DNA of 64,000 bases from Limnohabitans sp. (GTDB taxonomy: Bacteria > Pseudomonadota > Gammaproteobacteria > Burkholderiales > Burkholderiaceae_C). The notes under the pieces are model-generated. The model made no database searches, was not told where the DNA came from, and saw only the letters and a program-made list of their open reading frames with translations. Where the stretch lies: the NCBI GenBank assembly GCA_030158125.1, contig JAOATL010000010.1:124001-188000 (forward strand), given 5' to 3'. This document shows positions 49,474 through 64,000 of the stretch, piece by piece (positions within the stretch are counted from its first letter, which is position 1; each line of letters starts with the position of its first letter). A program made the position numbers and the translations under genes.

Positions 49474-51165
49474 ATGAAACGTTCCCGAAAACTGCTGATC
49501 GCCCTGCTGTTGTTGTCAGTTGCTGTGGGCTGGTTGGGTTATGCCAATCGACTGCTGGTGCTTCAGTACAGTTTGGGCTGGTACACCGATTGGGCCCATC
49601 CGCGTGCAGCGGCACAAGACGTGCCTTGGACTCAAGGCCCCAAAGAGGCTCAGCAAACACCGGCGCAGCGTCCGCCCAACATCATCGTGATATTGGCCGA
49701 CGATTTGGGCATCAACGACGTCACCCTGCACGGCGGTGGTCGCAGTGCAGAAGGCGTGCCCACGCCGCACATCGACGGCATTGCCAAAGCCGGGGTTCGG
49801 TTCAACCAAGCCTATGCGGGCAGTGCCGTGTGTACGGTTTCCAGGGCCGCGCTCCTGACAGGTCGATACCCTTGGCGCTTTGGGGTGGAGTTCACGCCAA
49901 CCCCAGGACAAATGGCCCGTGTTGCTGGTTCGCTTTACGCCAACCCCAACAACCTTTATCCCATCAACGTGGACCACGACAAAGCCAAGGCCACACCAGA
50001 ATTTGATCACTTGGGAATGCCCGCCTCTGAGAAAACCGTGGCCGAGCTTCTCAAAACACGGGGCTATCACAACATCCACATTGGCAAATGGCACTTGGGC
50101 AGCACCGCCGAAATGCGCCCAAACAACCAAGGTTTCGACGAAAGCCTGTTCATGGAAAGCGGCTTGTACTTGCCCGAGAACGACCCCCGCACCGTCAACT
50201 CCAAACAAGACTTCGACCCCATCGATCGCTTTTTGTGGCCCAACATGCGCTTTGGCGTGAGCTACAACGGGGGCGCTTGGTTTGAACCCAAACGCTACCT
50301 CACCGATTACTTCACCGACGAGGCTGTCAGTGCCATTGGTCAAAACAAACACCGCCCATTCTTCATGTACTTGGCGCATTGGGGGGTGCACACCCCACTT
50401 CAGGCCAGCAAGGAAGACTACGACGCGTTGCCCCACATCAAAGACCACCGTCGACGTGTCTATGGCGCCATGATTCGCTCTGTCGATCGCAGTGTGGGTC
50501 GCGTGATGCAGGCGCTCAAAGACAATGGGCTGGACCAAAACACCATCGTCATTTTTTCCAGCGACAACGGTGCACCCGGCTACATTGGCATTCCCGATGT
50601 CAACCAACCTTATCGAGGCTGGAAGCTCACTTTCTTTGAAGGCGGCTTGCGCGTGCCAACCGCCATGCAATGGCCGGCCCAAATTGCCGCAGGCCAACAA
50701 TTTAACCAACCCACCTCACACATCGACTTCACCCCTACTGTGGTGGCAGCGGCGGGTGCACGCATGCCCACAGATCGCAGCATTGATGGCGTGAATTTAC
50801 TCACAGCTTTGAAGCGAACGGGCGTGCAGGCGCCCAAATCACCCTCGCCTTCTATGTCACCACGACCGCTGTTTTGGCGCGATGGTGGGCTGCGAGCTGT
50901 TCAAGCCAATCAATGGAAGCTCATTCACTCTGCAAAACCTGACAAAGATTTTTTGTACGACTTGAAGACCGACCCCACTGAACAAACCAACTTGGCCGCC
51001 TCACACCCCGCCAAATTGGCCGAACTCAAAGCCTTGTTGAACGCGCACCATCGCGGCATGGCCGAGCCGTTGTGGCCCACTTTCATTGAAATGCCCATCT
51101 TCATCGACAAGACGCTCAACCAAGTCCACAACCGGGATGATGAATACACCTACTGGTACAACTGA
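49474..51165 (+). CDS. Sulfatase 1 (alkaline-phosphatase fold, noncanonical maturation motif)
   Basis: 563 residues from the ATG at 49474. Residues about 7-24 form a signal peptide or anchor (LLIALLLLSVAVGWLGYA). The metal motif NIIVILADDLGIND gives Asp76 and Asp77. The signature is VCTVSRAALLTGR: Cys120 is the residue converted to formylglycine, but the usual Pro/Ala two positions later is Val. Other family blocks: HIGKWHLGS, FFMYLAHWGVHTPLQA, FSSDNGAPGY. It resembles sulfatase 3 at the other end of the cluster over most of its length. The stop touches the ATG of the FGE gene (TGAATG), so enzyme and activator are coupled. The substrate sulfate ester is unknown. Confidence 0.92.
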   Translation: MKRSRKLLIALLLLSVAVGWLGYANRLLVLQYSLGWYTDWAHPRAAAQDVPWTQGPKEAQQTPAQRPPNIIVILADDLGINDVTLHGGGRSAEGVPTPHIDGIAKAGVRFNQAYAGSAVCTVSRAALLTGRYPWRFGVEFTPTPGQMARVAGSLYANPNNLYPINVDHDKAKATPEFDHLGMPASEKTVAELLKTRGYHNIHIGKWHLGSTAEMRPNNQGFDESLFMESGLYLPENDPRTVNSKQDFDPIDRFLWPNMRFGVSYNGGAWFEPKRYLTDYFTDEAVSAIGQNKHRPFFMYLAHWGVHTPLQASKEDYDALPHIKDHRRRVYGAMIRSVDRSVGRVMQALKDNGLDQNTIVIFSSDNGAPGYIGIPDVNQPYRGWKLTFFEGGLRVPTAMQWPAQIAAGQQFNQPTSHIDFTPTVVAAAGARMPTDRSIDGVNLLTALKRTGVQAPKSPSPSMSPRPLFWRDGGLRAVQANQWKLIHSAKPDKDFLYDLKTDPTEQTNLAASHPAKLAELKALLNAHHRGMAEPLWPTFIEMPIFIDKTLNQVHNRDDEYTYWYN

Positions 51166-52200
51166 ATGCCGTTGAACATGCGTCTTGCCTGGACAGCAGG
51201 CTCTGTGTGTGTGGCCGTCGCGGTTTGGGCGGGTTGGACTGTCTCACAACCAGCCCCAACAAGCGCCAGTTCAAGCGCACCTTTGCAATGCGATCTACCA
51301 GCGCCCAACCCGGCTGAACGGCACCCAGGCATGGTCTGGGTACCGCCTGGCAGTTTTGACATGGGCGACACCGTCTACGCCGAAGAAAAAGCCGTGCGCA
51401 ATGTGCGCATCAAGGGTTTTTGGATGGACCGCACCGAAGTCACCAACCTCGAATTTGCTGCCTTTGTCAAGGCAACGGGCTATGTCACGGTGGCTGAACG
51501 ACCCGTAGACCCCAAGCTTCATGCCAGCCTGCCTGAGACCATGCGTCAGGCGGGGGCTGTGGTTTTCAAAATGCCGGCCAAGCTCACACAAGGCGACGAC
51601 CCCCGTCAATGGTGGCAGTACATACCTGGCGCCAATTGGCAGCACCCTGCGGGTCCAGCCACCCACATCGAACAGCACGGCCACTTTCCTGTGGTTCATG
51701 TCACTTACGAAGATGCCTTGGCCTACGCCCGCTGGAAAGGTCACACACTGCCGACCGAAGCGCAATGGGAGTGGGCTGCACGTGCCGGCGCCAAAGAAAT
51801 GCCTGGACAACACGATCAGCCCAGTCGTGCCAACACCTGGCAAGGCATTTTCCCAACAGCCAATTCTGCAGAAGATGGCTTCGCGGGCATCGCACCCGTG
51901 GGTTGCTATGGTGCCAATGCGTGGGGATTGTTTGACATGATTGGCAATGTGTGGGAACTCACAACCGATGTCTTTGTCGCAGACCGAAGCGCAGCCAACA
52001 GTGGCCAGGGTTTAGACCCCGATGCCGCACAAACGCCGCCCGCTTTCAAAACAGGTCAGCCGCAGGCGCGTGTGATCAAGGGCGGTTCGTTCTTATGCGC
52101 GCCTAACTATTGCATGCGATACCGAGCAGGCTCGCGCCAACCGCAGGAAGAAGACTTGGCGGTCAGCCATTTAGGCTTCCGAACCATTTTGCAGCCTTGA
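51166..52200 (+). CDS. Formylglycine-generating enzyme (SUMF1/EgtB-fold), exported
   Basis: 344 residues. Residues about 7-25 are hydrophobic (signal peptide or anchor), so the enzyme is predicted outside the cytoplasm. The FGE-sulfatase fold starts with MVWVPPGSFDMGD and FWMDRTEVTNLEFAAFV, continues with HTLPTEAQWEWAARAG, LFDMIGNVWELTTD, and ends with VIKGGSFLCAPNYCMRYR. Cys311 and Cys316 match the copper-binding, catalytic cysteine pair of FGE (spaced five, as Cys336/Cys341 in human). EgtB-type or other SUMF-fold proteins lack this pair, so a true sulfatase activator is likely. It immediately follows sulfatase 1. Confidence 0.9.
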   Translation: MPLNMRLAWTAGSVCVAVAVWAGWTVSQPAPTSASSSAPLQCDLPAPNPAERHPGMVWVPPGSFDMGDTVYAEEKAVRNVRIKGFWMDRTEVTNLEFAAFVKATGYVTVAERPVDPKLHASLPETMRQAGAVVFKMPAKLTQGDDPRQWWQYIPGANWQHPAGPATHIEQHGHFPVVHVTYEDALAYARWKGHTLPTEAQWEWAARAGAKEMPGQHDQPSRANTWQGIFPTANSAEDGFAGIAPVGCYGANAWGLFDMIGNVWELTTDVFVADRSAANSGQGLDPDAAQTPPAFKTGQPQARVIKGGSFLCAPNYCMRYRAGSRQPQEEDLAVSHLGFRTILQP

Positions 52201-52213
52201 CAGGACCCCTGCC

Positions 52214-53641
52214 GTGCCCACTTTTTTGTCACTGATCAAACGCGCTTTACTGATCACTTTCAGCATGGCGATTGCCCTCGCAGCGCTGTTGGCCTTGCTC
52301 AAAGACACAATCAGTTTGGGCGCAGAGGTTTATCTGTACGGGTACCCACTGGTGATGATGGAAACCACGCGCGTGCACAGCGGCCATTTCATTGGCCCTG
52401 AAAACCAACTGCGTCGAGTTCGACAATTTCCCGATGCTGCGTTCAAAGATGTGGTGAGACCGAACGTTGACACGCTGTACACCACTGCTTTTTTCAGCAT
52501 GAAAGAAGGACCATGGGTGTTTGAGGTGCCCGCCAACACGCAGCGCTACGAATTGATGCCCTTCATGGATGCTTGGACTCATGTATTTGCCTCGCCCGGT
52601 ACACGCACCAATGGCCATACTTCAGCCACCTACCTGCTGGCTGGGCCTGAGTGGCAAGGCGAGGTGCCGCGGGGCATGACCTTGCTTCGGTCACCCACCG
52701 ACATGGTGTGGCTGATTGGTAGGACACAAACCAATGGCATGGCAGATTTTGAAACCGTACACCGCTTGCAAGATCGGCTGCAGGTGCACAAATTGGGCAC
52801 AGAAAATACAGCGCACACCCGAATACAAACCCGCACGCACATCCACAAGCTTACGGCCACCCCTGACGCTGCGAATGCAAGTGACACATGGCACAAGCAC
52901 CACTCTGTTTCTGTACCGCCAGTGAGCCAAATGCGCAACATGTCCACCGCAGATTTTTTGACACACTTGATGCAATTGATGGTGCACAACCCGCCTTATG
53001 CTGCCGATGCCCCTCTGCTCAAGCGCATGGCCGCTGTGCAGTTGATACCTGGCAAAACCGTTCAATTGAAATGGCATCAACAGGCGTGTTTTGCACTGGG
53101 CCGGTGGCTTGCCGAGTACAAAGTTCGGGCTGTCTTGCACACCAAATCACCGGATGGCACCTGGAGCACACCGCCGCTGAACCTGGGCACTTACGGCACA
53201 GACTACAACACGCGTGCGGCTGTGGCCATGGTGGGATTGGGTGCCAACTTGCCGGAAGACGCGCTGTACCCCAACACCAGTGTTGACCACCGAGGCAAAC
53301 CCCTCACAGGACAGCATCGTTACCGCCTGCATTTCATGGCGGATCAACTGCCCCCCGTCAAAGCCTTTTGGTCTGTCACGGCTTATGGCGACAATGAATT
53401 TTTAATCGACAACCCGCTCCATCGTTATGCATTGGGCGATCGAGATGCCTTGCACTACAACGCCGATGGCTCTTTGGACCTTTGGATCCAAGCCGATGCG
53501 CCTGCCAACGCATTGCATCGTACCAATTGGCTTCCTGTGAAACACCATGCTGCGTTTTTACTCAATGCTCGCCTTTACTGGCCCAAGGACAGCGCCCTTC
53601 AAGGTCGATGGAAAATGCCAGCCGTTGAGCGCCTCGACTGA
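52214..53641 (+). CDS. DUF1254/DUF1214 protein with N-terminal membrane helix
   Basis: 475 residues. Helix about 10-28 anchors or exports it. The N-terminal DUF1254 part shows YLYGYPLVMMETTR near residue 38 and VVRPNVDTLYTTAFFSMKEGPWVFEVP near residue 78; the C-terminal DUF1214 part shows FWSVTAYGDNEFLIDNPLHRYALGDRD near residue 383 and NWLPV near the end. The biochemical role of this widespread pair is not established to my knowledge. It follows FGE after 13 bp, so it is in the same operon, suggesting a role in handling the sulfated substrate. It converges on the TetR gene. Confidence 0.88.
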   Translation: MPTFLSLIKRALLITFSMAIALAALLALLKDTISLGAEVYLYGYPLVMMETTRVHSGHFIGPENQLRRVRQFPDAAFKDVVRPNVDTLYTTAFFSMKEGPWVFEVPANTQRYELMPFMDAWTHVFASPGTRTNGHTSATYLLAGPEWQGEVPRGMTLLRSPTDMVWLIGRTQTNGMADFETVHRLQDRLQVHKLGTENTAHTRIQTRTHIHKLTATPDAANASDTWHKHHSVSVPPVSQMRNMSTADFLTHLMQLMVHNPPYAADAPLLKRMAAVQLIPGKTVQLKWHQQACFALGRWLAEYKVRAVLHTKSPDGTWSTPPLNLGTYGTDYNTRAAVAMVGLGANLPEDALYPNTSVDHRGKPLTGQHRYRLHFMADQLPPVKAFWSVTAYGDNEFLIDNPLHRYALGDRDALHYNADGSLDLWIQADAPANALHRTNWLPVKHHAAFLLNARLYWPKDSALQGRWKMPAVERLD

Positions 53642-53647
53642 CGTGGC

Positions 53648-54277
53648 TTAAGCCACTTGCTTTGCCACCAAGTAGTGCGAAATCAAGGTCCGCAAATAGG
53701 CGCGAATGTTGGGTGGGTTGGCGGGTCGACTCAATGCTTGGTACCCTCCCACAATGGCCAGGTACAGCAAAGCCGCCAAATCTCTGGCTTTTTTGGCGTC
53801 CTTCACCAGCACCAAAAATTTAGATTCAAACAAGTCCATTCGACCGGCATCGACTTCGACCAACAATTGGGCTGCATCAGCATGGTGTTGGCTAAGCGCA
53901 CGCATGGCTTGCTCAAACCGAAGGTTTTCGAGTTCAGAACCCGCTTGAAGAAAAGCGGCATCCACCACAAACTCTAAGTCCTTCAGCGCATCCCCGCTTT
54001 GCTGCGATTTCAGTTTGGCATCCAAGGCCAATTGCGCCAATTTCCAGCGCATGAGCAAACTGCCAATGAGGTCGGCATGGTCCGTGAAGTGCCAATAAAA
54101 ACTACCGCGTGTGACCTTGAGCTTTTCGGCCAAGGCAAGCACCTTGACATTGTCAAAACCGCCCACCACCACTGCCCTGAAGGCTTCATCGAGCCAATCG
54201 TCGCGCGTGAGTCGAGCCGCTTCAGGCGAAACAGTTTTTTGACGCTTGTTGTTTGAATCAGTGGCCATGAAAGTCAT
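53648..54277 (-). CDS. TetR-family transcriptional regulator
   Basis: 209 residues from 54277, or 206 from the second ATG at 54268; neither has a clear ribosome site. The helix-turn-helix is VKVLALAEKLKVTRGSFYWHFTDHADLI near residues 45-72, classical for TetR. The C-terminal ligand domain (about 80-205) is not informative. It is divergent from the outer-membrane channel gene; the 144 bp between them contain a near-perfect palindrome, so it probably represses itself and the channel operon until an inducer binds. Confidence 0.9.
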   Translation of the reverse strand: MTFMATDSNNKRQKTVSPEAARLTRDDWLDEAFRAVVVGGFDNVKVLALAEKLKVTRGSFYWHFTDHADLIGSLLMRWKLAQLALDAKLKSQQSGDALKDLEFVVDAAFLQAGSELENLRFEQAMRALSQHHADAAQLLVEVDAGRMDLFESKFLVLVKDAKKARDLAALLYLAIVGGYQALSRPANPPNIRAYLRTLISHYLVAKQVA

Positions 54278-54371
54278 TCAGCATTTTGCAACACGCAGCA
54301 GACGCCTCTATATTTGTCATCGCTAGCGGAAACCCTAAAGAGGAATCATCTTTGCTGTGCTAGAGTGATTT

Positions 54372-54393
54372 GTCAATACACATGTGTACTGAC
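54372..54393. promoter_or_regulatory. Candidate TetR operator palindrome
   Basis: 22-bp inverted repeat with half-sites GTCAATACACA and TGTGTACTGAC, 10 of 11 positions symmetric, core TACACATGTGTA. It lies between the divergent TetR and channel genes, 28 bp before the channel ATG, in a position where binding would block its promoter. No second copy was noticed in the window. Confidence 0.7.
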
Positions 54394-54421
54394 CTCACCC
54401 CACTCACCCACGGAGATACCC

Positions 54422-55576
54422 ATGATTCGTTCAATGCAAAACGCAACGCCTCGTCAGTCAATTCTTGCCACATTGCCTTGGGTTTGCCTGCTGGCCAGCG
54501 GCGTCAATGTGCAAGCCGCTGAAAGTTACAAACTGCGTCAAGCGCCCGTCGGTGCATTTGGCGGCGAGATTGCCTCTTCGGCCGACAATCCTGGCTTTTT
54601 TGGCACCGCCAGCCTGACGCAATTGCAGATTTACAAAATTGCAGACGCCTCTGGCAGCAACGTGTCACCCGCAGGCATTGCACCCATTCAACTGAACCCA
54701 GCGCTGCCCTACAAGGTGGCGTTTCCGACAGGTAGCTTGGCCTTCAACCAAGATCAAACACAGCTCAATGTGGTGGGCGGCTACCTCACAGAAGGCAAAT
54801 ACGGCGATGGCCATGTGGCCTTTGCCATCAACGTGCCTTTCATTCAACAAAAACGCAGCTTTGTGGTGACGCAGCCGGCAGGCACACTGACCCCCGCGCC
54901 CACCACACCGCCCTTGAGCCCAGCCATTGTGGGGCAACTCAATGCAGGCGCCGCCCAAGCCAATGCATTGGTTCAAGCCAAGGTTTTGGCCGCTGGCGTC
55001 AACCAAAATCTTGAAACATCCGGCGTTGGCGATACCGAGTTGTCGACGGTGTGGATCAGGCACGTCGATCGTCTCAAAGTGGCCGCTGGCGTTTCCTTGT
55101 TTGCACCCACCGGTTCCTACGACAAAAACCGTGGCCCCAACCCTGGCTTTGGCAACTTCTACACACTTCGACCCGGTGTGGCCGTGACTTACAACTTGAA
55201 CCCCAAGCACACCGATTCCGCCTGGGATGCTGGCGTCACCATTGCAGGCCGGGTGTCGTATGGCATCAACACCCGCAACAAAGACACCGATTACAAAAGC
55301 GGCAATTTCATTTACAGCGAAGGCGGCATTGTGAAGGTCAATGGCGACTGGGCCTACGGCTTGAATGTGTTTTCAATTCAACAAATTTCAGATGACACCG
55401 GCACCGGGGCCACGTTGGGTGGCAATCGCTACAAATCCAATGGCGTGGGGCCTTTTGTGTCTTTCAAATTGCCTGGCAAAGACGCCGGCTTTAATTTGCA
55501 GTACAGCGACAACTTTGGTGGTCGCAATGCCATCGTGGCCAAGTCACTGCAATTGCGATTTGTGAAGGCCTGGTAA
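54422..55576 (+). CDS. Outer-membrane channel, phenol MetA-degradation-like family
   Basis: 384 residues from the ATG at 54422 (GGAG 6 bases upstream). Signal peptide ends near VNVQAAES. The mature start SYKLRQAPVGAFGGEIASSADNPGFFGT, repeated amphipathic strands and the final aromatic-ended KSLQLRFVKAW are typical of the Phenol_MetA_deg (pfam13557-like) beta-barrel group found in aromatic and hydrophobic compound degradation clusters. It probably admits the substrate across the outer membrane. First gene under the TetR operator. Confidence 0.82.
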   Translation: MIRSMQNATPRQSILATLPWVCLLASGVNVQAAESYKLRQAPVGAFGGEIASSADNPGFFGTASLTQLQIYKIADASGSNVSPAGIAPIQLNPALPYKVAFPTGSLAFNQDQTQLNVVGGYLTEGKYGDGHVAFAINVPFIQQKRSFVVTQPAGTLTPAPTTPPLSPAIVGQLNAGAAQANALVQAKVLAAGVNQNLETSGVGDTELSTVWIRHVDRLKVAAGVSLFAPTGSYDKNRGPNPGFGNFYTLRPGVAVTYNLNPKHTDSAWDAGVTIAGRVSYGINTRNKDTDYKSGNFIYSEGGIVKVNGDWAYGLNVFSIQQISDDTGTGATLGGNRYKSNGVGPFVSFKLPGKDAGFNLQYSDNFGGRNAIVAKSLQLRFVKAW

Positions 55577-55597
55577 TCCCTTCATTGAGGCCACCCC

Positions 55598-56803
55598 ATG
55601 TCGTTCCGGCGCCTTCAAAGTTGGCTGATGCCTGTCATCAGCCAACGCTTTTTATCGCGCGAAAGACTCTTAAAGTTGCGGCAAAAAGCGGAACACAAAC
55701 GGCAAGTGCAAACTCGGCCGCATGTGCTTCATTTTTTTCAGCAAACAGATGATCCCTATTCGCAATTATTGGCGCTGGCGCTGCCGCAATTACAGTCACG
55801 CTATGCGGTGTCAGTGTTGCAACACCTGGTAGGCGAACCCGATGACTCAGCCGTGCCAGAACGCGACAAGCTCAAAGCCTACAGCCAGCTAGATGCCCAA
55901 CGCTTGGCATCGCATTACGGTTTGCGCTGGCCTGAAGTGGGCAATGATCGCAACAGGCCCAAGTCCTCGCCTGAAGCCCTGCAAACTGCTCATCGTCTGC
56001 GAAAAAAATGGGGGCACTACCTCAGCGGCATGATTTATTACGAAGGTGAATGGTATTGGGGCATAGACCGTTTGCATCACCTTGAGGCGCGCTTGACGGA
56101 ATTGGGCCTGTCGACCCATCTGAAATCTGCCAACCAGCAGCGCATCACGCCACTGTTTGAAACACCCCAATACCAACCCATCGGCAACGTGCCCGAAGGC
56201 ACGAACGTCGATTTTTACTTCTCTCTCAGAAGCCCCTATTCGGCCATTAGCGTCGCCAAAGTATTTGCGTGGGCAAAGGCAAATGGTGTGCAGTTGAACT
56301 TGAAATATGTCCTGCCAATGGTGATGCGCGGTTTGCCCGTGCCTGCAGAGAAAAGAAGGTACATCAGCTTGGATGCCGCCCGCGAGGCATTTGTTCAAAA
56401 CGTGCCTTTTGGACGACTGAACGACCCTGTTGGCAAACCCACAGAACGCGGCCTGGCACTCATTCCTTTTGCGCAAATGCACGAACAAGCAGAAGCCTAC
56501 ATTCAGTCTTTCATGCAAGGTGTGTGGTCAGAAGGCTTGGATGCCGGCACCGATGCACATTTGAAGCGCATCGTCGAGCGCGCAGGACTCAATTGGAATG
56601 CCGCCAAAGACATTTTGAACAACGAGGCCAATGACACGCATTGGCGCGCAGTGGCAGAGCAAAACCGACAAGCCATGTTGGCCTTAGGCTTGTGGGGTGT
56701 CCCTTCTTTTCGCTTTGAAGACACGGCTGTTTGGGGGCAAGACCGTTTTTGGGTCATCGAAAAAGCCCTGCACGCCAAGTTCGACTCACCTTCCCCGCTT
56801 TAA
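55598..56803 (+). CDS. Tandem DsbA/kappa-GST-fold protein (HCCA isomerase-like)
   Basis: 401 residues with two thioredoxin-like DSBA modules. Module 1 begins with HVLHFFQQTDDPYSQLLALALP near residue 43. Module 2 begins with VDFYFSLRSPYSAISVAK near residue 206 and ends with LGLWGVPSFRFEDTAVWGQDRF near residue 366, the cis-proline and FGQDR-type ending of 2-hydroxychromene-2-carboxylate isomerases and kappa-class GSTs. Neither module has a CxxC pair; Ser-Pro-Tyr (SPYS) takes its place, so a glutathione-dependent isomerase or transferase is more likely than a disulfide oxidase. No signal peptide. It ends 3 bp before sulfatase 2. Confidence 0.8.
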   Translation: MSFRRLQSWLMPVISQRFLSRERLLKLRQKAEHKRQVQTRPHVLHFFQQTDDPYSQLLALALPQLQSRYAVSVLQHLVGEPDDSAVPERDKLKAYSQLDAQRLASHYGLRWPEVGNDRNRPKSSPEALQTAHRLRKKWGHYLSGMIYYEGEWYWGIDRLHHLEARLTELGLSTHLKSANQQRITPLFETPQYQPIGNVPEGTNVDFYFSLRSPYSAISVAKVFAWAKANGVQLNLKYVLPMVMRGLPVPAEKRRYISLDAAREAFVQNVPFGRLNDPVGKPTERGLALIPFAQMHEQAEAYIQSFMQGVWSEGLDAGTDAHLKRIVERAGLNWNAAKDILNNEANDTHWRAVAEQNRQAMLALGLWGVPSFRFEDTAVWGQDRFWVIEKALHAKFDSPSPL

Positions 56804-56806
56804 ACC

Positions 56807-58582
56807 ATGCCCCTCTTTCGCAGTACCCGCCAAACTTGGCTGACCTTGTTCGTTGCCGCAATCTTGAGCCTGTGGGGTCATGCATGGGCCAAGCGCCCCA
56901 ACATCGTGGTCTTGTTGGCCGATGATTGGGGCTATAGCGACGTGGGTGCCTTTGGCAGCGAAATCAACACACCCCATTTGAACCAACTGGCGAAGTCTGG
57001 AACGCGTTTCTCCAACTTTCACGTGAGTGCCTCTTGCTCGCCCACGCGCTCGATGCTGCTGACCGGTGTGGACAACCATCTGAATGGGGTGGGCAACATG
57101 CGCGAGACCATTCCTCAATCGCACGTGGGACGCGCCGGTTATTTGAGTGTTTTGAACCAACGCGTGGTGACCGTGGCCAGTTTGTTGCAAGACAGTGGCT
57201 ATCGAACTTACGCTGCTGGTAAATGGCATGTGGGCAAGGAAGCGCACAACCTGCCGCCCGCTCGCGGCTTTGACCGTTCTTTGGTCATGGGTGACAGCGG
57301 CTCAGACAATTGGGAAACAGGCAAACTGTATTTGGATTTGACCGACAAGGTGTATTGGTACGACAACGGGCGTGAAGCCCCAATGCCCCAAACTTTTTAC
57401 TCGTCTGAGTTTTACGTCAGCAAGACGCTTGAGTATTTGAAGACCGATGCCAAATCGGACAAGCCGTTTTTTGCGTACCTGGCATTTCAAGCCAATCACA
57501 TACCTGTTCAAGCGCCGCAAGAATTCATCGACAAGTACAAAGGCCGCTACAACGCTGGCTGGGATGTACTGCGTCAAGAACGTCGCAACAAGGCCATCGA
57601 ACTGGGCTTGGTGCCACCCAACACGCCCATGGCAGCCTTGCCTGCATCGCATGTGGCGTGGGATTCACTGAGTTCGGACGACCAAGCTTATCAAGCGCGG
57701 CGCATGGAAGTTTATGCCGCCATGGCAGAAGCCATGGACTTTCACATTGGCCGCCTCTTGGCCCATTTGAAGCAAACGGGTGAATACAACAACACCGTGT
57801 TTGTGTTCATGTCTGACAATGGTGCAGAAGCCTCAGACCCTTACGCATTGGCAGTCGGCCGTTGGTGGCTTGATCAGCATTACAACCGTGACATCGATCG
57901 CCTGGGCAGCCCGGGCGCCTACAGCATCATTGGCCCCCACTGGGCACGTGCTGCCACCGCGCCTTTGAACACCTACAAATTCTTTGCCGGTGAAGGTGGC
58001 ATCAGGGTGCCCTTGATCATCTCGGGCATTCCAGCTTCAGCCAAACAATCTGTGCAGGGCAGCCTCACACACGTCAGCGACATCGTGCCCACCCTGCTCG
58101 AGTTGGCCAGCGTACAACACCCTGGCACGTCCTACAAAGGGCAAACCATTTATCCACTCACTGGGCACAGCTTGCTGCCTGTGCTGCGAGGTCAAGCCAC
58201 TCGGGTGCGCGGCCCCGACGAAGTCTTGGGCTACGAGTTGTCTGGCAACCGTGCGCTCTTCAAGGGCGACTACAAATTGCTCAGCAATTTAGCGCCTGTC
58301 GGTGATGGTCAATGGCATCTCTACAACATCGCCACAGATCCTGGTGAGACGCGCGATTTGCAACACGACATGCCCGAGTTGTTCCAAGGCATGCAAAACG
58401 ATTACGCCAAATGGTCCAAGGCCAATGGTGTGCTGCCCATGCCCGAGGGTTACGACCCGATCCAACAGGTGATCATCAACTCCTTGGTGTTTGTGTATTG
58501 GCCTCGTTACCAATGGCATCTGGCAGGTTTGGGTGTATTGCTCTTGCTGAGCGGGGTGTGGCTATGGCGACGCAGGCGCTAA
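56807..58582 (+). CDS. Arylsulfatase (sulfatase 2), exported and C-terminally anchored
   Basis: 591 residues. Signal peptide to about residue 28 (LTLFVAAILSLWGHAWA). Metal motif NIVVLLADDWGYSD (Asp39, Asp40). Canonical maturation signature ASCSPTRSMLLTG with Cys77. Other blocks: YAAGKWHVGKE, FAYLAFQANHIPVQAP, FVFMSDNGAEASDP, LNTYKFFAGEGGIRVPLI. Residues about 563-587 form a membrane helix followed by WRRRR, so the enzyme faces the periplasm while tethered to the inner membrane. Arylsulfatase-A-like by sequence style; the substrate is unknown. Confidence 0.93.
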   Translation: MPLFRSTRQTWLTLFVAAILSLWGHAWAKRPNIVVLLADDWGYSDVGAFGSEINTPHLNQLAKSGTRFSNFHVSASCSPTRSMLLTGVDNHLNGVGNMRETIPQSHVGRAGYLSVLNQRVVTVASLLQDSGYRTYAAGKWHVGKEAHNLPPARGFDRSLVMGDSGSDNWETGKLYLDLTDKVYWYDNGREAPMPQTFYSSEFYVSKTLEYLKTDAKSDKPFFAYLAFQANHIPVQAPQEFIDKYKGRYNAGWDVLRQERRNKAIELGLVPPNTPMAALPASHVAWDSLSSDDQAYQARRMEVYAAMAEAMDFHIGRLLAHLKQTGEYNNTVFVFMSDNGAEASDPYALAVGRWWLDQHYNRDIDRLGSPGAYSIIGPHWARAATAPLNTYKFFAGEGGIRVPLIISGIPASAKQSVQGSLTHVSDIVPTLLELASVQHPGTSYKGQTIYPLTGHSLLPVLRGQATRVRGPDEVLGYELSGNRALFKGDYKLLSNLAPVGDGQWHLYNIATDPGETRDLQHDMPELFQGMQNDYAKWSKANGVLPMPEGYDPIQQVIINSLVFVYWPRYQWHLAGLGVLLLLSGVWLWRRRR

Positions 58583-59850
58583 GCGGCTACTTTGACAGCC
58601 CGTGGCCTTGTGAAGATGCGGGTCCTGCACGATTGCAATCGCCGTACGCTGCAAAGGGTTTGGACATCAAGGCAAACGAAAGGCTGCACAGCACATCTCG
58701 TCGCACCCACCTTTCCACCATGACCGTGTTGGGCGCACCCGGCGAGGTTTTCTTGCTGACGCATTCTGTCCTTGGCGCGCACTTAGGCTTGGCCACCACC
58801 GCACAAGTTCAGTTGATTGACCCCATCACGCTGGCCACCCGCTGCCAATCGCCACGCTTGGCAGGTGGGCCCATGTGGCCGGGCGGCATGGCGGTTCTTG
58901 GCAACGGCCATGTGTTGGTGCTGTATGGTCGCTATGCGCATCTACTGAACAGGCAATGTGAATTGCTGCGTTCCAAGCAACTTCCCATCAACGAGCCCTA
59001 CAACAGCTTTGTGGTGTTGGCCAATGGCCTGGTGGTCACCAAAAACATCTCACCCACCACACCTGCGCGTTTAAGCGTGTTGCATCCCGACACACTTGAA
59101 CAGGCAGCACCCTGCATTGACTGTGAAGAGCCCGCCATCGCTCGCCTGAGTGCACAAGGCAATACGGTGTACATGGTGGGCATCACGTGTGTGGTGCGTT
59201 ACCACTGGGATGAAGCGAATTCAAGCTTGGTGAAAGATCCCACGTGGTCTTATCACTACTTGAAGGATTCAAAGCAAAGTTATGGCTGGGACATGGTGAT
59301 CACGGCACATGATGCCTGGTTCATGGACAACGGCAAGCACAATTACCTCATCAGCATGTTGGGGGCTGGCAAAAATAAGGCACCCAACCGGTTGCACCGT
59401 GTCTCGCTCAGTGATTCAAATTCTCACCAGCACTGGGAAGTGAGCAGCGTCCAAGGCGGCGCCATTACCAATCCACCCTTGGTCGATGAAGCGCGGCAAA
59501 TTGTGGTGGCGTTTGACTCGGCCAATCGTCATTTGCGCGCTTGGCGCATCATCCGAAACACAAGCCAAGACGGCTGCGTGGCCTTGCAAGACTTGTGGCA
59601 CCTCACACAATTTGGCGCTGCCAGTCACATGCTGCTGTTTGCGGACACTGGCGAACTGTGTGTCAACGATTACCGGCGCTTTAACGAGCAAGTGGTTATT
59701 TTGGACATTGAAACCGGCCTAGAAAAATCACGCACAAGCACAGGTGGCTTGATGCAAGGCGTGGTGTTTCCCAGTGCAGGCTGGCAACGCGACATTTATT
59801 GGTCCTCGATGGACCGTCTTACACGGATACACATCGCACCGCATGTCTAA
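58564..59850 (+). CDS. Predicted beta-propeller (quinoprotein-like) protein
   Basis: 428 residues from the ATG at 58564, which overlaps the sulfatase 2 end by 19 bp; the frame is open back to 58411, inside the sulfatase. Repeated strand patterns (MAVLGNGHVLVLYGRYAH, YNSFVVLANGLVVTKN, IARLSAQGNTVYMVGI, QGGAITNPPLVDEARQIVVAF) suggest a six- to eight-bladed propeller of the PQQ/SMP-30 kind. No signal peptide is seen, and no PQQ ligand motif. I do not recognise a family. Its stop overlaps the SDR start by 8 bp, so it is translationally coupled within the cluster. Confidence 0.7.
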   Translation: MATQALSGYFDSPWPCEDAGPARLQSPYAAKGLDIKANERLHSTSRRTHLSTMTVLGAPGEVFLLTHSVLGAHLGLATTAQVQLIDPITLATRCQSPRLAGGPMWPGGMAVLGNGHVLVLYGRYAHLLNRQCELLRSKQLPINEPYNSFVVLANGLVVTKNISPTTPARLSVLHPDTLEQAAPCIDCEEPAIARLSAQGNTVYMVGITCVVRYHWDEANSSLVKDPTWSYHYLKDSKQSYGWDMVITAHDAWFMDNGKHNYLISMLGAGKNKAPNRLHRVSLSDSNSHQHWEVSSVQGGAITNPPLVDEARQIVVAFDSANRHLRAWRIIRNTSQDGCVALQDLWHLTQFGAASHMLLFADTGELCVNDYRRFNEQVVILDIETGLEKSRTSTGGLMQGVVFPSAGWQRDIYWSSMDRLTRIHIAPHV

Positions 59851-60634
59851 AACCATTCTCATCACAGGCGCCGGCACAGGCATTGGCAAAGACACGGCCT
59901 TTGCCTTGGCGCAGCGTGGTCACCAGGTATTGGCCACCACGCAAACAGAGGCGCAAGCTTTGACTTTGAAGCAAGCTGCGAGCGAAAAAGGTCTGCGCTT
60001 GGAAGCCTTCAAACTGGACATCACCTTGGCAGAAGATCGTGCGTTGCTCTCGCAGCATGCCATCGATGTGTTGATCAACAACGCCGCCATGGGTGAATCT
60101 GGCTCTTTGGCCGAAGTGGACATGCAGCGCGTGCGTCAATTGTTTGAAGTCAATTTGTTTGCCACCTTAGAACTCACACAAGTGGCATTGCGCCAAATGA
60201 TCGAACGCGAAAGTGGCACCGTCTTGTTCATCAGCTCCATTGCGGGCCGTGTGCCCATGCCCTTTCTCATGCCGTACAGCATGAGCAAGTTTGCGCTGTC
60301 GGCTGCAGCTGCTGGCTTGCGCGCAGAAATGGACCAACTCAAAAAGAACGTTCACATTGCAGTCATTGAACCCGGCGCCATTCACACCGGCTTCAACCAA
60401 GCCATGACCGACAGCAAGTACGCATGGATGGGGCCGACGTCTTATTTTGCAGACCAAGCGGAGGCCATGAAAAAACAAGAACACCTCACCTTCCATTGGC
60501 TTGAGGCCAAAACCACAGCAAGCATTGTGAAAGCCATTGTGAAAGCGGCCGAATCACGCAGACCGCGTCTGCGTTATGTCGCACCTTGGATTCAAGGCTT
60601 TGGCGTGCGCTTGGCCAGAATTTTCGGAGTTTGA
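59843..60634 (+). CDS. Classical SDR oxidoreductase
   Basis: 263 residues from the ATG at 59843. NAD(P) loop ITGAGTGIGKDTA at residues 7-19, NNAAMGES near residue 80, catalytic Ser131/132 (LFISSIAG) and YSMSK at 145-149. A complete, functional classical SDR, able to oxidise a secondary alcohol or reduce a ketone in the cytoplasm. In this context it could act on the alcohol freed by a sulfatase. It ends 2 bp before the metallo-hydrolase start. Confidence 0.9.
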   Translation: MSKTILITGAGTGIGKDTAFALAQRGHQVLATTQTEAQALTLKQAASEKGLRLEAFKLDITLAEDRALLSQHAIDVLINNAAMGESGSLAEVDMQRVRQLFEVNLFATLELTQVALRQMIERESGTVLFISSIAGRVPMPFLMPYSMSKFALSAAAAGLRAEMDQLKKNVHIAVIEPGAIHTGFNQAMTDSKYAWMGPTSYFADQAEAMKKQEHLTFHWLEAKTTASIVKAIVKAAESRRPRLRYVAPWIQGFGVRLARIFGV

Positions 60635-60636
60635 AC

Positions 60637-61710
60637 ATGCGATTAAAAAAAACGACTCTCACATGGATGGTGCTGGGCTTGGTAGCGGCAGGTCTGTACA
60701 TGGCACGTGCGCCAATCAGCATGGCCATTGCCAAGCGTGTGGCCACGCAACGCCTCAGCAGCGACCCCTTGCGCGGTTTGCCCGATGGCCTGCATGTGGC
60801 CATTTGTGGTGCGGGCTCTCCCATGCCGGACGAACAGCGCGGCGGGCCTTGCACCATGGTCATCGCCGGTCAGCAAATTTTTGTGTTTGACGCGGGCAAT
60901 ACCAGCGCGCGCAACATCAACAAAATGGGTTTCAATGCGGGCAACATTCACAGCATCTTTTTAACCCACTACCATTCGGACCACATCGATGGCCTGGGAG
61001 AGTTGATGCTTCAGCGCTGGGTCTCCAATTCCAATGCAGAGCCTGTCAAAGTGCATGGCCCGATAGGTGTGGAAACAGTGGTGAACGGGTTCTTGCAAGC
61101 CTATAGCCTCGACCGCGGTTATCGTGTTGCACACCATGGCGATGCCGTGTTGCCCAACAAAGGCTTTGGGGCGATTGCCAAATCGTTTGCATTGCAAGAC
61201 GACAAAGCCACCGTGGTTTTTGAAAACGCCGACACACGCATCACGGCCTTCAGTGTCTCGCATGCCCCCATTCATCCCGCGGTAGGTTACCAAATTCGAT
61301 ACAAAGATCGCAGCATGGTGATCAGCGGCGACACCACCCCCTCCGCCCACGTGCAGCGTGAGGCCCAAGGTGTCGACCTCTTGGTGCATGAGGCCATGTC
61401 CACCGACCTCATGGCATTGATTCAAGAGGGCGCACACGAAGCCCAGCGCGACAAGCTGGCACAACTGATGAAAGACATTCTCAACTATCACACCACGCCG
61501 CAAGAAGCCGCCGACATTGCCAGCAAAGCGCAAGTGAACTTTTTGCTGTTGAACCATGTGGCACCACCGCTGCCCTTGCCAGGCTTGGTGGATGTGTTTT
61601 TAAAAGGCACTTCCGACATCTTCAAAGGCAAAATTCAAGTGGCCAAAGACGGTGATTTTTTAAGTTTGCCAGCCGGCCAAAAAATCATTCAAACCAGCTC
61701 CCGCTACTGA
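60637..61710 (+). CDS. MBL-fold hydrolase, tRNase-Z/AtsA-arylsulfatase-like
   Basis: 357 residues from the ATG at 60637 (GGAG 7 bases upstream). Hydrophobic N-terminus (about 7-30) suggests export or anchoring. The core CGAGSPMPDEQRGGPCTMVI, FVFDAGN and LTHYHSDHIDGLGEL (HxHxDH at 111-116), with SVSHAPIHPAVGYQI, VISGDTTPS and LLVHEAM, matches the tRNase Z-like branch of metallo-beta-lactamases. That branch includes the arylsulfatase AtsA of Pseudoalteromonas carrageenovora. Export argues against a tRNA nuclease. It may be a second, unrelated kind of sulfatase, or an esterase or lactonase. Confidence 0.85.
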   Translation: MRLKKTTLTWMVLGLVAAGLYMARAPISMAIAKRVATQRLSSDPLRGLPDGLHVAICGAGSPMPDEQRGGPCTMVIAGQQIFVFDAGNTSARNINKMGFNAGNIHSIFLTHYHSDHIDGLGELMLQRWVSNSNAEPVKVHGPIGVETVVNGFLQAYSLDRGYRVAHHGDAVLPNKGFGAIAKSFALQDDKATVVFENADTRITAFSVSHAPIHPAVGYQIRYKDRSMVISGDTTPSAHVQREAQGVDLLVHEAMSTDLMALIQEGAHEAQRDKLAQLMKDILNYHTTPQEAADIASKAQVNFLLLNHVAPPLPLPGLVDVFLKGTSDIFKGKIQVAKDGDFLSLPAGQKIIQTSSRY

Positions 61711-61713
61711 AAG

Positions 61714-62631
61714 ATGTTGATGCGCAAACTCCCTCACGTTCAAGACTTTCTTCGCACACCCGAAGAACGCTTCCAAAATCTGCCCGACTTCCCCTTCGAG
61801 CCCCACTACACCTTGGTGGGAGGCTTGCGCGTGGCGCACCTTGACGAAGGTCCACGCGATGGGCCCGTGGTGTTACTGATGCATGGTGAACCGGCATGGT
61901 CTTTTCTGTATCGCAAGATGATTCCTATTCTGGTCAGTGCAGGCTATCGCGTCTTGGTGCCCGATCAAATCGGTTTTGGCCGCAGCGACAAACCCGCGCA
62001 CCGCGCCGACTACACCTACAACCACCACGTGCAATGGATGAGTGCATGGCTTGAAGCGCAAAACGTGACGGGTATCACGCTTTTCTGCCAAGACTGGGGC
62101 TCACTCATTGGTTTGCGCATGGTGGCGGAAATGCCCGAGCGCTTTGACCGCATTGCCTTGAGCAACGGCGGCTTACCCACTGGCATGGAAAAAATTCCAA
62201 CAGCCTTCCACATCTGGCGTGCATTTGCCATGTACAGCCCTTGGTTTCCCATTGGCAAAATTGTGCGCACCGGTTGTGCACAAGGTTTGACTGATGCGGA
62301 AGTAGCGGCCTACGATGCGCCCTACCCAAGCAGTCGCTACAAAGCAGGTGCCAGGGTGTTTCCAACGCTGGTGCCCATTGACCCCAGCGATCCAGCGCGC
62401 GAAGCCAACGAGCGTGCTTGGGACTTGTTCAAAAACTGGCGCAAACCCTTCATCACCTTGTTCAGCACACGCGACCCAGTGACCAAAGGCGGACAAGTTA
62501 TTTGGCAGAAAAAAGTGCCTGGCGCAGCCGGCCAACATCACACCCAAATTAGAGGTGCGGCACACTTTGTCCAAGAAGACAAAGGCGAAGAAGTGGCGCA
62601 GGCTTTGGTGGAATTTATTCGTTGCAACTAG
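61714..62631 (+). CDS. Haloalkane dehalogenase (HLD-I type, alpha/beta hydrolase)
   Basis: 305 residues. Oxyanion and halide region MHGEPAWSFLYRKM near residue 56, nucleophile Asp127 in FCQDWGSLIGLR followed by the halide-binding Trp128, catalytic acid region LFSTRDPVTKGG near residue 250, and histidine in GAAHFVQEDKGEE. This is the DhlA-like HLD-I pattern. Epoxide hydrolases share the fold but usually carry other residues around the nucleophile. No signal peptide, so cytoplasmic. It closes the plus-strand cluster, 3 bp after the MBL gene, and converges on sulfatase 3 with 12 bp between. Confidence 0.88.
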   Translation: MLMRKLPHVQDFLRTPEERFQNLPDFPFEPHYTLVGGLRVAHLDEGPRDGPVVLLMHGEPAWSFLYRKMIPILVSAGYRVLVPDQIGFGRSDKPAHRADYTYNHHVQWMSAWLEAQNVTGITLFCQDWGSLIGLRMVAEMPERFDRIALSNGGLPTGMEKIPTAFHIWRAFAMYSPWFPIGKIVRTGCAQGLTDAEVAAYDAPYPSSRYKAGARVFPTLVPIDPSDPAREANERAWDLFKNWRKPFITLFSTRDPVTKGGQVIWQKKVPGAAGQHHTQIRGAAHFVQEDKGEEVAQALVEFIRCN

Positions 62632-62643
62632 GCGGCAGCGATA

Positions 62644-64000
62644 TCAGTTACCGTAATAAACGAACTCGTCGGTTGGCTGCATTTTGTCGCGCAAAGTTTT
62701 GTCGACGGCAATGGCGGCTTCGGCCATGGACGGCCAACTGGGTTTCACTTGGGTGGCATTGAAGGCTTCAAGCTCTTTTCGCATGCGGGTCACTCGTTCA
62801 GGCTCTTTGGCTGCCAGGTTTTTTTGCTCGGTTGGATCTAACGCCAAGTTGAACAGCCACTCTTTTGGAGGATTTTGCGCCACCTGCAGTTTCCAATCGC
62901 CCTGACGAATCACGCGGTACGTATCGGTTCGCCAAAACAAGGCGCGTGCGGGTCCTTTGTCGGCAGGCTTGTTGATTTGCGGCAACAAATTGATGCCATC
63001 CATGGACCGGTCCGCAGGGAGCTTGACGCCAGTGGCCGCTGCGATGGTGGCAAAAATGTCCATGTGATTCGAAGGTACTTGTGGCTTCACACCTTTGGGA
63101 ATGGCTGCAGGCCAGCGCATGAACAAAGGCACGCGTATGCCGCCTTCAAAAAACGTGGCCTTCCAACCCCTGTAGGGTTTGTTCAAATCCTTCAAACCCA
63201 CGTAATGTGCGCCGCCGTTGTCACTGGTAAATATCACCAGGGTGTTGTCGTCTAGGCCTTTGTCCTTGAGCGATTGAAGCACACGTCCAATGTTGCGATC
63301 CAAGTTGCGGACCATGGCTGCGTAGACACGCAACGTGTGGTCTTCAATGTGTGACAAGGCCTCGTAATCTTCTTTGGTGGCCTGCAAAGGCGTATGCGGT
63401 GCGGTGTAAGCCAAGTAAAGAAAGAAAGGCTGCTTGCGATTGGCCTCAATGGCTCTCTCTGCTTCATCTGTGAGGTAATCGGTCACATAGCGCTTTGGCT
63501 TGAACGCATCACCGCCATTGAAGTGCATGCCAAAGCTGCCGGCTGCCCACTGGAATTGGTCAATGATGTCAAACGATTGCTTGGCGTTCACCACATTGGG
63601 ATCGCTCTCCGGCAAGTAAAGTGAGCTGGCATGTTGAAACGACAAAGCTTCGTCAAAGCCATGCACGTGCGACCTGAACTCCGGTGCATCGCCCAAGTGC
63701 CATTTGCCGACATGCAGCGTTCGATAGCCATCCGCTTTGAGCAACTTGGCAAGCGTAATTTCCGAACGCGGCAAGCCCATGGTTTCATAGGGAATCAAAT
63801 CCTTTTCGCGCTCAGCGTGGTAGATGGCGTCGTGGATTTGTGTGGGTCCTTTGTAATGGCCAATCGCTTTCATGAAGGCCTTGGGGGTGGGGGTAAATTC
63901 ATACCCAAAACGAGTCGGGTACCGGCCGGTCATGATGGCGGCACGTGAAGGCGCACACGTGGCGTTGCCAGAGTAGCTGGTTTCAAAATTGGCGCCTTGT
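62644..64000 (-). CDS. Sulfatase 3 (5' part outside the window)
   Basis: About 451 residues visible; the start and metal-binding N-terminus lie beyond position 64000. An ATG at 63933 is internal: reading on to the edge gives ATCAPSRAAIMTGR, the canonical signature with the modified cysteine at 63955-63957. Other blocks: LHVGKWHLGD, FFLYLAYTAPHTPLQA, FTSDNGGAHYV. It shares with sulfatase 1 GRYP-RFG-EFTPTP, long LYLPE-DP--VN-KQ-F segments and a similar end (DEFVYYGN against DEYTYWYN), so the two are paralogs. It runs toward the dehalogenase gene. Confidence 0.92.
   Translation of the reverse strand, partial: QGANFETSYSGNATCAPSRAAIMTGRYPTRFGYEFTPTPKAFMKAIGHYKGPTQIHDAIYHAEREKDLIPYETMGLPRSEITLAKLLKADGYRTLHVGKWHLGDAPEFRSHVHGFDEALSFQHASSLYLPESDPNVVNAKQSFDIIDQFQWAAGSFGMHFNGGDAFKPKRYVTDYLTDEAERAIEANRKQPFFLYLAYTAPHTPLQATKEDYEALSHIEDHTLRVYAAMVRNLDRNIGRVLQSLKDKGLDDNTLVIFTSDNGGAHYVGLKDLNKPYRGWKATFFEGGIRVPLFMRWPAAIPKGVKPQVPSNHMDIFATIAAATGVKLPADRSMDGINLLPQINKPADKGPARALFWRTDTYRVIRQGDWKLQVAQNPPKEWLFNLALDPTEQKNLAAKEPERVTRMRKELEAFNATQVKPSWPSMAEAAIAVDKTLRDKMQPTDEFVYYGN

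Follow-up and report, generated by a model that had tools for sequence, protein, structure and literature searches.

A conserved sulfatase island with its own maturase and a haloalkane dehalogenase in Limnohabitans, predicted to act on a lipid-like sulfate ester

The last 14.5 kb of a 64,000-nucleotide stretch of a Limnohabitans sp. genome (GenBank assembly GCA_030158125.1, contig JAOATL010000010.1; G000:C10:124001-188000, referred to here as the window; genome size 3.06 Mb) hold an island of twelve genes. These encode three sulfatases (S1, S2, and S3), a formylglycine-generating enzyme (FGE), a DUF1254/1214 protein, a TetR regulator, a channel, a tandem kappa-GST-like protein (DsbA2), a beta-propeller (Prop), a short-chain dehydrogenase/reductase (SDR), a metallo-beta-lactamase-fold (MBL) hydrolase, and a haloalkane dehalogenase (HLD). 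Open reading frame translations and Pfam matches bear out the gene list of the original prediction, as every gene that it named was found intact. The island is confirmed as a conserved, locally regulated sulfate-ester system, and the case for this is stronger than first stated. Each enzyme by itself is of a known family; what is new is the gene combination and the likely substrate class. Among the matches listed, no description of this gene set was found in the open-licence literature. Judging from sequence, we put at somewhat better than even the chance that the island is dedicated, under TetR control, to the catabolism of a hydrophobic, lipid-like sulfate ester, probably one with carbon-halogen bonds.

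Conservation and regulation of the gene set

A comparison of gene neighbourhoods in other genomes had been proposed earlier; when it was run, the set was found to recur as one system. FGE orthologues (57-81% identity) are present in 22 of the 71 other same-genus genomes searched, with one further fragment, and 27 regions around FGE matches were compared. In the twelve close loci (L004-L015) FGE lies downstream of ftsY. Four of the twelve are cut by contig ends, and in all eight that reach past HLD the genes channel-DsbA2-S2-Prop-SDR-MBL-HLD have one order and orientation; DUF1254 was not found in two of the twelve (L007 and L010). A second form of the island (L016-L021 and L025) is rearranged, with S3 between TetR and the channel, and identities to the window range from ~30% (channel) to 68%. 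Several of these loci are cut, L019 shows all genes except S1, and the HLD of G043 and of G062 sits just outside the compared stretch. L022-L024 share FGE and DUF1254, and two of them also S3 and MBL, while L026-L030 share little.

Named genomes were scanned with a DsbA2 alignment, and the best 80 of at least 544 relatives were taken, some of which are the same contigs as L007-L020. A gene was counted as present at an identity of at least 38% over 30% of the query. The named loci include Undibacterium, Pelomonas, Rhodoferax, Polaromonas, Paucibacter, and some Alphaproteobacteria. S2 is present in 23 of the 36 full-length loci, where it is accompanied by MBL (22), Prop (21), HLD (19), TetR (19), SDR (14), DUF1254 (13), FGE (12), the channel (10), and anSME (2). 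The gene set is not due to chance, as Undibacterium, Pelomonas, and further Burkholderiales have it too, with some rearrangement. DsbA2 by itself is no island marker, since Limnobacter has it with none of the other island genes in the stretch. A metagenome-assembled genome (MAG) titled Bordetella parapertussis, a doubtful title, holds the island TetR, DsbA2, Prop, and SDR (L058). Nothing pointed to plasmid carriage, as the 39 plasmid records found with DsbA2 were all below 60% identity and none covered 80% of the query.

Prop and HLD travel together. Among 90 genomes of the genus 37 have Prop, 36 an HLD orthologue, and 35 both (Fisher p 2e-21, ignoring descent). The HLD orthologues comprise 33 at 64-100% identity and three in pieces (G132, G122, and G016), the next best match being at 45%. 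Prop is found alone in G051 and G058 and HLD alone in G016, all three of which are fragmented assemblies. In a family set of 399 genomes from 141 genera (HLD accepted at E up to 1e-110, Prop up to 1e-80) HLD was found in eight, Prop in eight, and both in six (Fisher p 1.4e-10, again ignoring descent), with start-to-start distances within 3.2 kb. All eight close HLD homologues in this set adjoin other island genes. For the ten family genomes with HLD or Prop, six regions besides the window were compared and three more were judged from positions alone: two HLD-only genomes keep DsbA2-S2-MBL-HLD, two Prop-only genomes keep the island without HLD, and the other two compared regions hold the full set. 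The full set is rare, as an order-wide sample gave Prop in 1 of 399 genomes, the window's own. HLD is among the core genes of the island.

The gap between TetR and the channel contains a palindrome, TCAATACACATGTGTACTGA, which is the only zero-mismatch site genome-wide and is a likely candidate for the TetR operator. With up to 3 mismatches allowed, the window has one such site where 0.05 would be expected. Similar palindromes lie upstream of TetR in other genera, as far as Undibacterium (L079 and L081; also L080, L088, and L108). Apart from an unrelated one in L016, no TetR-upstream palindrome passed the criterion in L007, L010, L016-L019, or L021. The candidate operator site is nevertheless present, with one mismatch, in G042, the genome of L007. 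A widened pattern, built after the sites had been seen, places operator-like sites before S3 in four of five close relatives (L004, L005, L012, and L014; not L007) and before S1 in one of three (L015), and gives none before FGE in five relatives. This suggests that S3 (or S1) may belong to the TetR regulon of these relatives. A wider TetR regulon in G000 was rejected, as the two further 3-mismatch sites equal the two control sites.

The features of the island are listed in Table 1. The genes had been thought to be expressed together. Intergenic gaps of -19 to +21 bp inside both plus-strand blocks agree with this, and a single transcript is impossible: the strand blocks are S1-FGE-DUF1254 (+), TetR (-), channel-to-HLD (+), and S3 (-), and with TetR and S3 on the opposite strand there must be at least four transcription units. 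Of the predicted three sulfatases, all are confirmed by Pfam, and S3 runs over the window end, stopping 326 bases further on the same contig.

Table 1. Features of the island, with positions counted from the first base of the window
Feature	Position	Strand	Basis and remarks
Sulfatase S1	49474..51165	+	PF00884, 184.8 bits; N-terminal membrane anchor; CTVSR at formylglycine site
FGE	51166..52200	+	PF03781; hydrophobic anchor at N-terminus; both catalytic cysteines
DUF1254/DUF1214 protein, exported or anchored	52214..53641	+	PF06863, PF06742; hydropathy
TetR-family regulator	53648..54277	-	PF00440
Palindrome TCAATACACATGTGTACTGA, likely TetR operator	54373..54392		TetR-channel gap
Outer-membrane channel, Phenol_MetA_deg family	54422..55576	+	PF13557, 89.1 bits
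DsbA2, tandem kappa-GST/HCCA-isomerase-like, probably cytosolic	55598..56803	+	AF2 model, Foldseek; DSBA/kappa-GST-like
Sulfatase S2	56807..58582	+	PF00884; signal peptide, C-terminal anchor; CSPTR
Prop, beta-propeller, probably cytosolic	58564..59850	+	AF2 model; no Pfam family
SDR	59843..60634	+	PF00106
MBL-fold hydrolase, N-terminal anchor	60637..61710	+	closest solved structure 8gyg
HLD, probably cytosolic	61714..62631	+	NF002043, 440.8 bits
Sulfatase S3	62644..64000, on to 64326 past the window	-	PF00884, 207.9 bits (part in L002); CAPSR

Sulfatase maturation and the haloalkane dehalogenase

The island was predicted to carry its own sulfatase activator, and this holds. FGE matches PF03781 at 230.7 bits (cut-off 23.3) and has both catalytic cysteines (KGGSFLCAPNYC). 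Its closest solved structures are FGEs, the best being 6s07, in which GGSFLCHESYC aligns to GGSFLCAPNYC of the island protein, and the cysteine motif is present in relatives. In some relatives a radical SAM protein is encoded that was identified as anSME, as the L046 protein passes TIGR03942 with 486.9 bits (cut-off 349.45); those in L042, L045, L048, and L053 were called from similarity to it. These are 5 of the 80 named loci, none of the five shows FGE, and no locus among the 80 has both maturases. Since anSME occupies loci without a visible FGE, the case for self-contained sulfatase activation is strengthened. anSME replaces FGE in some islands, a non-orthologous maturase exchange; L042, L046, and L048 are short contigs, so FGE could lie out of sight in these three.

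The usual formylglycine motif of sulfatases is C-x-P/A-x-R. S2 (CSPTR) and S3 (CAPSR) match C-x-[PA]-x-R, and SDNG is visible by eye in both, where the motif-pattern script gave no match for either. S1 fails the pattern, having CTVSR in its place, and its metal, GKWH, and DNG motifs are intact. CT[VI]SR is kept across genera in seven S1-type relatives (L004, L011, L015, L065, L077, L080, and L108). The S1 gene, with this odd site, sits immediately upstream of the anchored FGE. The closest solved structure to S2 is the arylsulfatase 1hdh, and a hydrophobic C-terminal segment is found in 41 of 49 S2 homologues. The exchange of FGE and anSME in one locus type and the presence of an odd-site sulfatase beside an anchored FGE are useful for work on maturase specificity.

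The catalytic Asp nucleophile of haloalkane dehalogenases is followed by a Trp and assisted by an Asp/His pair. HLD passes the curated NCBIfam model NF002043 at 440.8 bits (cut-off 265), and E59, D127, W128, W168, D254, and H284 are invariant in 25 of 25 relatives. The solved structures closest to it are 6f9o, 5esr, and 4mj3; with these and 1b6g, all of which we take to belong to subfamily HLD-I, it shares the aligned nucleophile Asp and Trp, the acid Asp, and the His. The catalytic residues are thus intact and hydrolysis of carbon-halogen bonds is predicted. Many organisms that are not on record as degrading synthetic organohalogens are reported to have haloalkane dehalogenases, and natural halogenated compounds have been suggested as the targets of these enzymes (PMC6299022). 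The HLD described here sits in a conserved sulfatase/maturase island, which ties one HLD clade to sulfatases and a maturase, and the natural role of the enzyme becomes a specific, testable question.

Proposed function and alternative substrates

The predicted order of locations, from outer membrane through periplasm to cytoplasm, fits the hydropathy of the homologues. With a threshold of 1.6 and size-filtered homologues, an N-terminal hydrophobic segment was called in S1/S3 (27/29), S2 (34/44), FGE (25/27), DUF1254 (24/27), the channel (22/30), and MBL (38/38), and it is nearly absent from DsbA2 (0/62), Prop (1/32), SDR (0/26), and HLD (0/22). The test is crude, as the neighbouring flavoprotein DAO scores 2.08 and the window S2 1.59.

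Each reaction, compartment, and substrate class given below is what we infer from these data. The channel would admit the compound through the outer membrane, and the inner-membrane-anchored S1-S3, matured by the co-encoded exported FGE (or by anSME in some relatives), would desulfate it in the periplasm, perhaps assisted by the anchored MBL hydrolase. In the cytosol HLD would swap halogen for hydroxyl, SDR would turn the alcohols into carbonyls, and the tandem kappa-GST-like protein would work with glutathione. A separate locus encoding glyoxalase-like, Baeyer-Villiger monooxygenase (BVMO)-like, and alpha/beta-hydrolase proteins may then cleave the ketones, and the resulting acids would enter beta-oxidation. 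An acyl-CoA ligase gene and a PF10118 gene precede S1 in L151 and L152; the L068 ligase is closest to long-chain models, below the cut-off (824 vs 869 bits), and the L082 ligase passes a long-chain subfamily model (546 vs 476). The acyl-CoA ligases together with HLD, SDR, and the BVMO-like locus make a lipid-like halogenated sulfate ester the best fit, and a substrate of this lipid-like kind seems likelier than a sulfated polysaccharide.

The BVMO-like locus is linked to the island suggestively. A flavin monooxygenase gene lies within four island loci (L023, L024, L066, and L080), and in L024 the BVMO-like protein is fused to an Abhydrolase_3 domain and sits beside DUF1254, FGE, and an SDR. 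An orthologue with 52-58% identity (two partial) occurs in 37 of the 90 genus genomes and in 35 of the 37 Prop carriers (Fisher p 3.6e-20, ignoring descent). The exceptions are G017 and G015, which have it without Prop, and G128 and G058, which have Prop without it; a further 14 genus genomes have only a homologue at 43-46%. In the window's genome the gene is on another contig (L111:8618-11781; G000:C1), flanked by a glyoxalase-like gene and by a gene with an 83% orthologue in G006 that encodes an alpha/beta hydrolase. Both neighbours are found in four of five unlinked regions, and in the fifth (L114) the gene is near the contig end. Type I Baeyer-Villiger monooxygenases have the fingerprint FxGxxxHxxxW, which the L111 protein matches as FQGQWVHPQFW, along with the Rossmann motif GAGLSG; its best solved matches are BVMOs, aligned over only about the first 230 residues. 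Several of the orthologues have one in-frame stop inside the aligned stretch. As the 30-row ftsY tree described below offers only two independent pairs, the link to the island is no stronger than suggestive.

Several observations weigh against a halogenated lipid sulfate. HLD is missing from 4 of the 23 S2-bearing full loci (L045, L053, L086, and L108) and is therefore dispensable, and 9 of the 23 have neither FGE nor anSME within the stretch. S1, found in 3 of the 12 close loci and missing from 9, may with its CTVSR not be a maturase substrate, and its closest solved structures are carrageenan sulfatases. The tandem DsbA occurs without S2 in 13 of the 36 full named loci; these have no Prop, SDR, TetR, channel, or DUF1254, and among them are four with MBL, two with HLD, two with FGE, and two with S1/S3-type sulfatases. 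HCCA isomerase and PF13557 also feature in aromatic catabolism, which together with the carrageenan sulfatase matches of S1 leaves room for a sugar or aromatic sulfate. An acyl-CoA ligase is missing from the island of the window itself, and the widened pattern gave no operator-like site before its S1, FGE, or S3. Additionally, shared descent confounds the co-occurrence. Five changes of the island are required by a 30-row ftsY tree of hand-picked genomes, two of them forced by well-supported branches. This gives two independent pairs, a number too small for a test; averaged, HLD goes along with the island in 1.9 of the 2 pairs and the BVMO-like gene in 0.9.

An aryl or non-halogenated alkyl sulfate, with the HLD-like enzyme performing another hydrolysis or a detoxification, is a credible though unlikely alternative. 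S2 and MBL are nearest to arylsulfatases, DsbA2 is nearest to HCCA isomerase, the channel is of the Phenol_MetA_deg family, and the four islands without HLD fit it as well. However, the HLD residues, including the Trp after the nucleophile, do not vary among the relatives, HLD is tied to the island family-wide, and there is no ring-cleavage enzyme among the twelve island genes. Sterol or steroid sulfates, in which case the BVMO-like enzyme would act on steroid ketones, appear improbable. The solved relatives of the BVMO-like protein include a steroid monooxygenase, acyl-CoA ligases occur in relatives, and KshA_C is above the cut-off in two of eight carriers (G012 strong at 208 bits, G001 marginal); five of the eight, including G000, gave no match, the sixth was below the cut-off, and none of 14 controls passed in a comparison that had no positive control. 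A dehalogenase would also have no evident place in sterol sulfate breakdown. A sulfated polysaccharide utilisation locus is very improbable: S1 is indeed nearest to carrageenan sulfatases and an aldarate/uronate cluster follows S3 in the window, with parts of it in close relatives, but no glycoside hydrolase, lyase, or SusC/D match was found among the twelve genes, UxaA occurs in only one (L056) of the 80 named loci, and the aldarate genes are absent from the ~4 kb after HLD in L151 and L152. A sulfur-scavenging locus serving sulfate supply alone, to which three sulfatases with their own maturase could point, is equally remote, as the local TetR with one perfect candidate operator in the genome and the HLD, SDR, and kappa-GST genes would point to use of the carbon skeleton.

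Within the favoured reading, a halogenated lipid sulfate, the island may more specifically be a bacterial pathway for the algal chlorosulfolipids of freshwater chrysophytes, a tentative proposal that we regard as doubtful. Limnohabitans is a freshwater genus; among the record titles of matching MAGs a few name lakes (Baikal and Lac Pavin), others are marine or soil, and most name no habitat. Danicalipin has one primary and one secondary sulfate and a gem-dichloride. The sulfatases would take off the sulfate esters, HLD and the glutathione-dependent proteins would take off the chlorines, and SDR with the BVMO and hydrolase would break the chain at the carbon that had carried the secondary sulfate, giving acids for beta-oxidation. 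Chlorosulfolipids, with up to six chlorines, are reported first from the freshwater chrysophyte Ochromonas danica and later from Poterioochromonas malhamensis (PMC13413282), and Limnohabitans planktonicus has served as food for chrysophyte cultures (PMC12966406). No description of bacterial chlorosulfolipid breakdown was found in the open-licence literature, among the matches listed. If the proposal is true, it gives a haloalkane dehalogenase a natural substrate, freshwater chrysophyte lipids a sink, and an algal lipid class with no bacterial breakdown among those matches a named fate, and the carriers are relatives of bacteria fed to chrysophytes in culture.

Known systems, other island proteins, and neighbouring genes

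Compared with sulfatases activated by FGE or anSME (e.g. 1hdh), the island sulfatases are of the same family with the same motifs and maturase. Unlike 1hdh-type systems, three anchored sulfatases share one locus here, FGE is anchored, and S1 has CTVSR. Alkylsulfatases of the SdsA1/Pisa1 type carry alkylsulfatase dimerisation and C-terminal domains. Neither was found in the island MBL, for which Pfam gives MBL-superfamily families only. In comparison with alkyl sulfate degradation (SDS and sec-alkyl sulfates) by SdsA1/Pisa1 (PMC3920027), both systems have an MBL enzyme and would desulfate alkyl sulfates, whereas the island MBL is nearest to RNase-Z-like and arylsulfatase MBLs and the island sulfatases are of the formylglycine type. 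Polysaccharide utilisation loci likewise have co-located sulfatases, while the twelve genes of the island include no CAZyme or SusC/D. No open-licence paper was found that treats DUF1254 together with a sulfatase.

The MBL hydrolase has an HYHSDH motif, and the HxHxDH residues are invariant in 42 of 42 relatives. Its nearest solved structure, 8gyg, is labelled 'Arysulfatase'. For L014:14548-15665 tblastn splits the MBL gene into two pieces that overlap, which may reflect a frameshift. The AlphaFold2 (AF2) model of DsbA2 has a pLDDT of 83.7, and its top Foldseek match is 2imd. Matches to HCCA isomerase and kappa GST extend over roughly half of the protein, by sequence its second half, and DDPYS at 51 and RSPYS at 211, one in each half, fit a tandem. 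The Prop model (pLDDT 84.5) matched only generic propellers in the fold search.

Directly after S3 (L002:1428-9905; window 64427 onward) there is probably an aldarate/uronate cluster, with two TctC receptors, a galactarate/altronate-dehydratase-like gene, GntR, an MR_MLE enzyme, an HpcH/HpaI aldolase, an epimerase-like gene, and a PfkB kinase gene. A role of the cluster in the pathway was considered and set aside, as UxaA was found only in the window, L007, and L056, the latter two being the same contig; weak TctC homologues (34-41%) occur in 11 of the 80 named loci. In rearranged islands the PF10118 hydrolase has beside it, upstream of FGE, a protein of 225 residues that matches nothing in Pfam or NCBIfam (L018:4226-4903 and 12 further loci).

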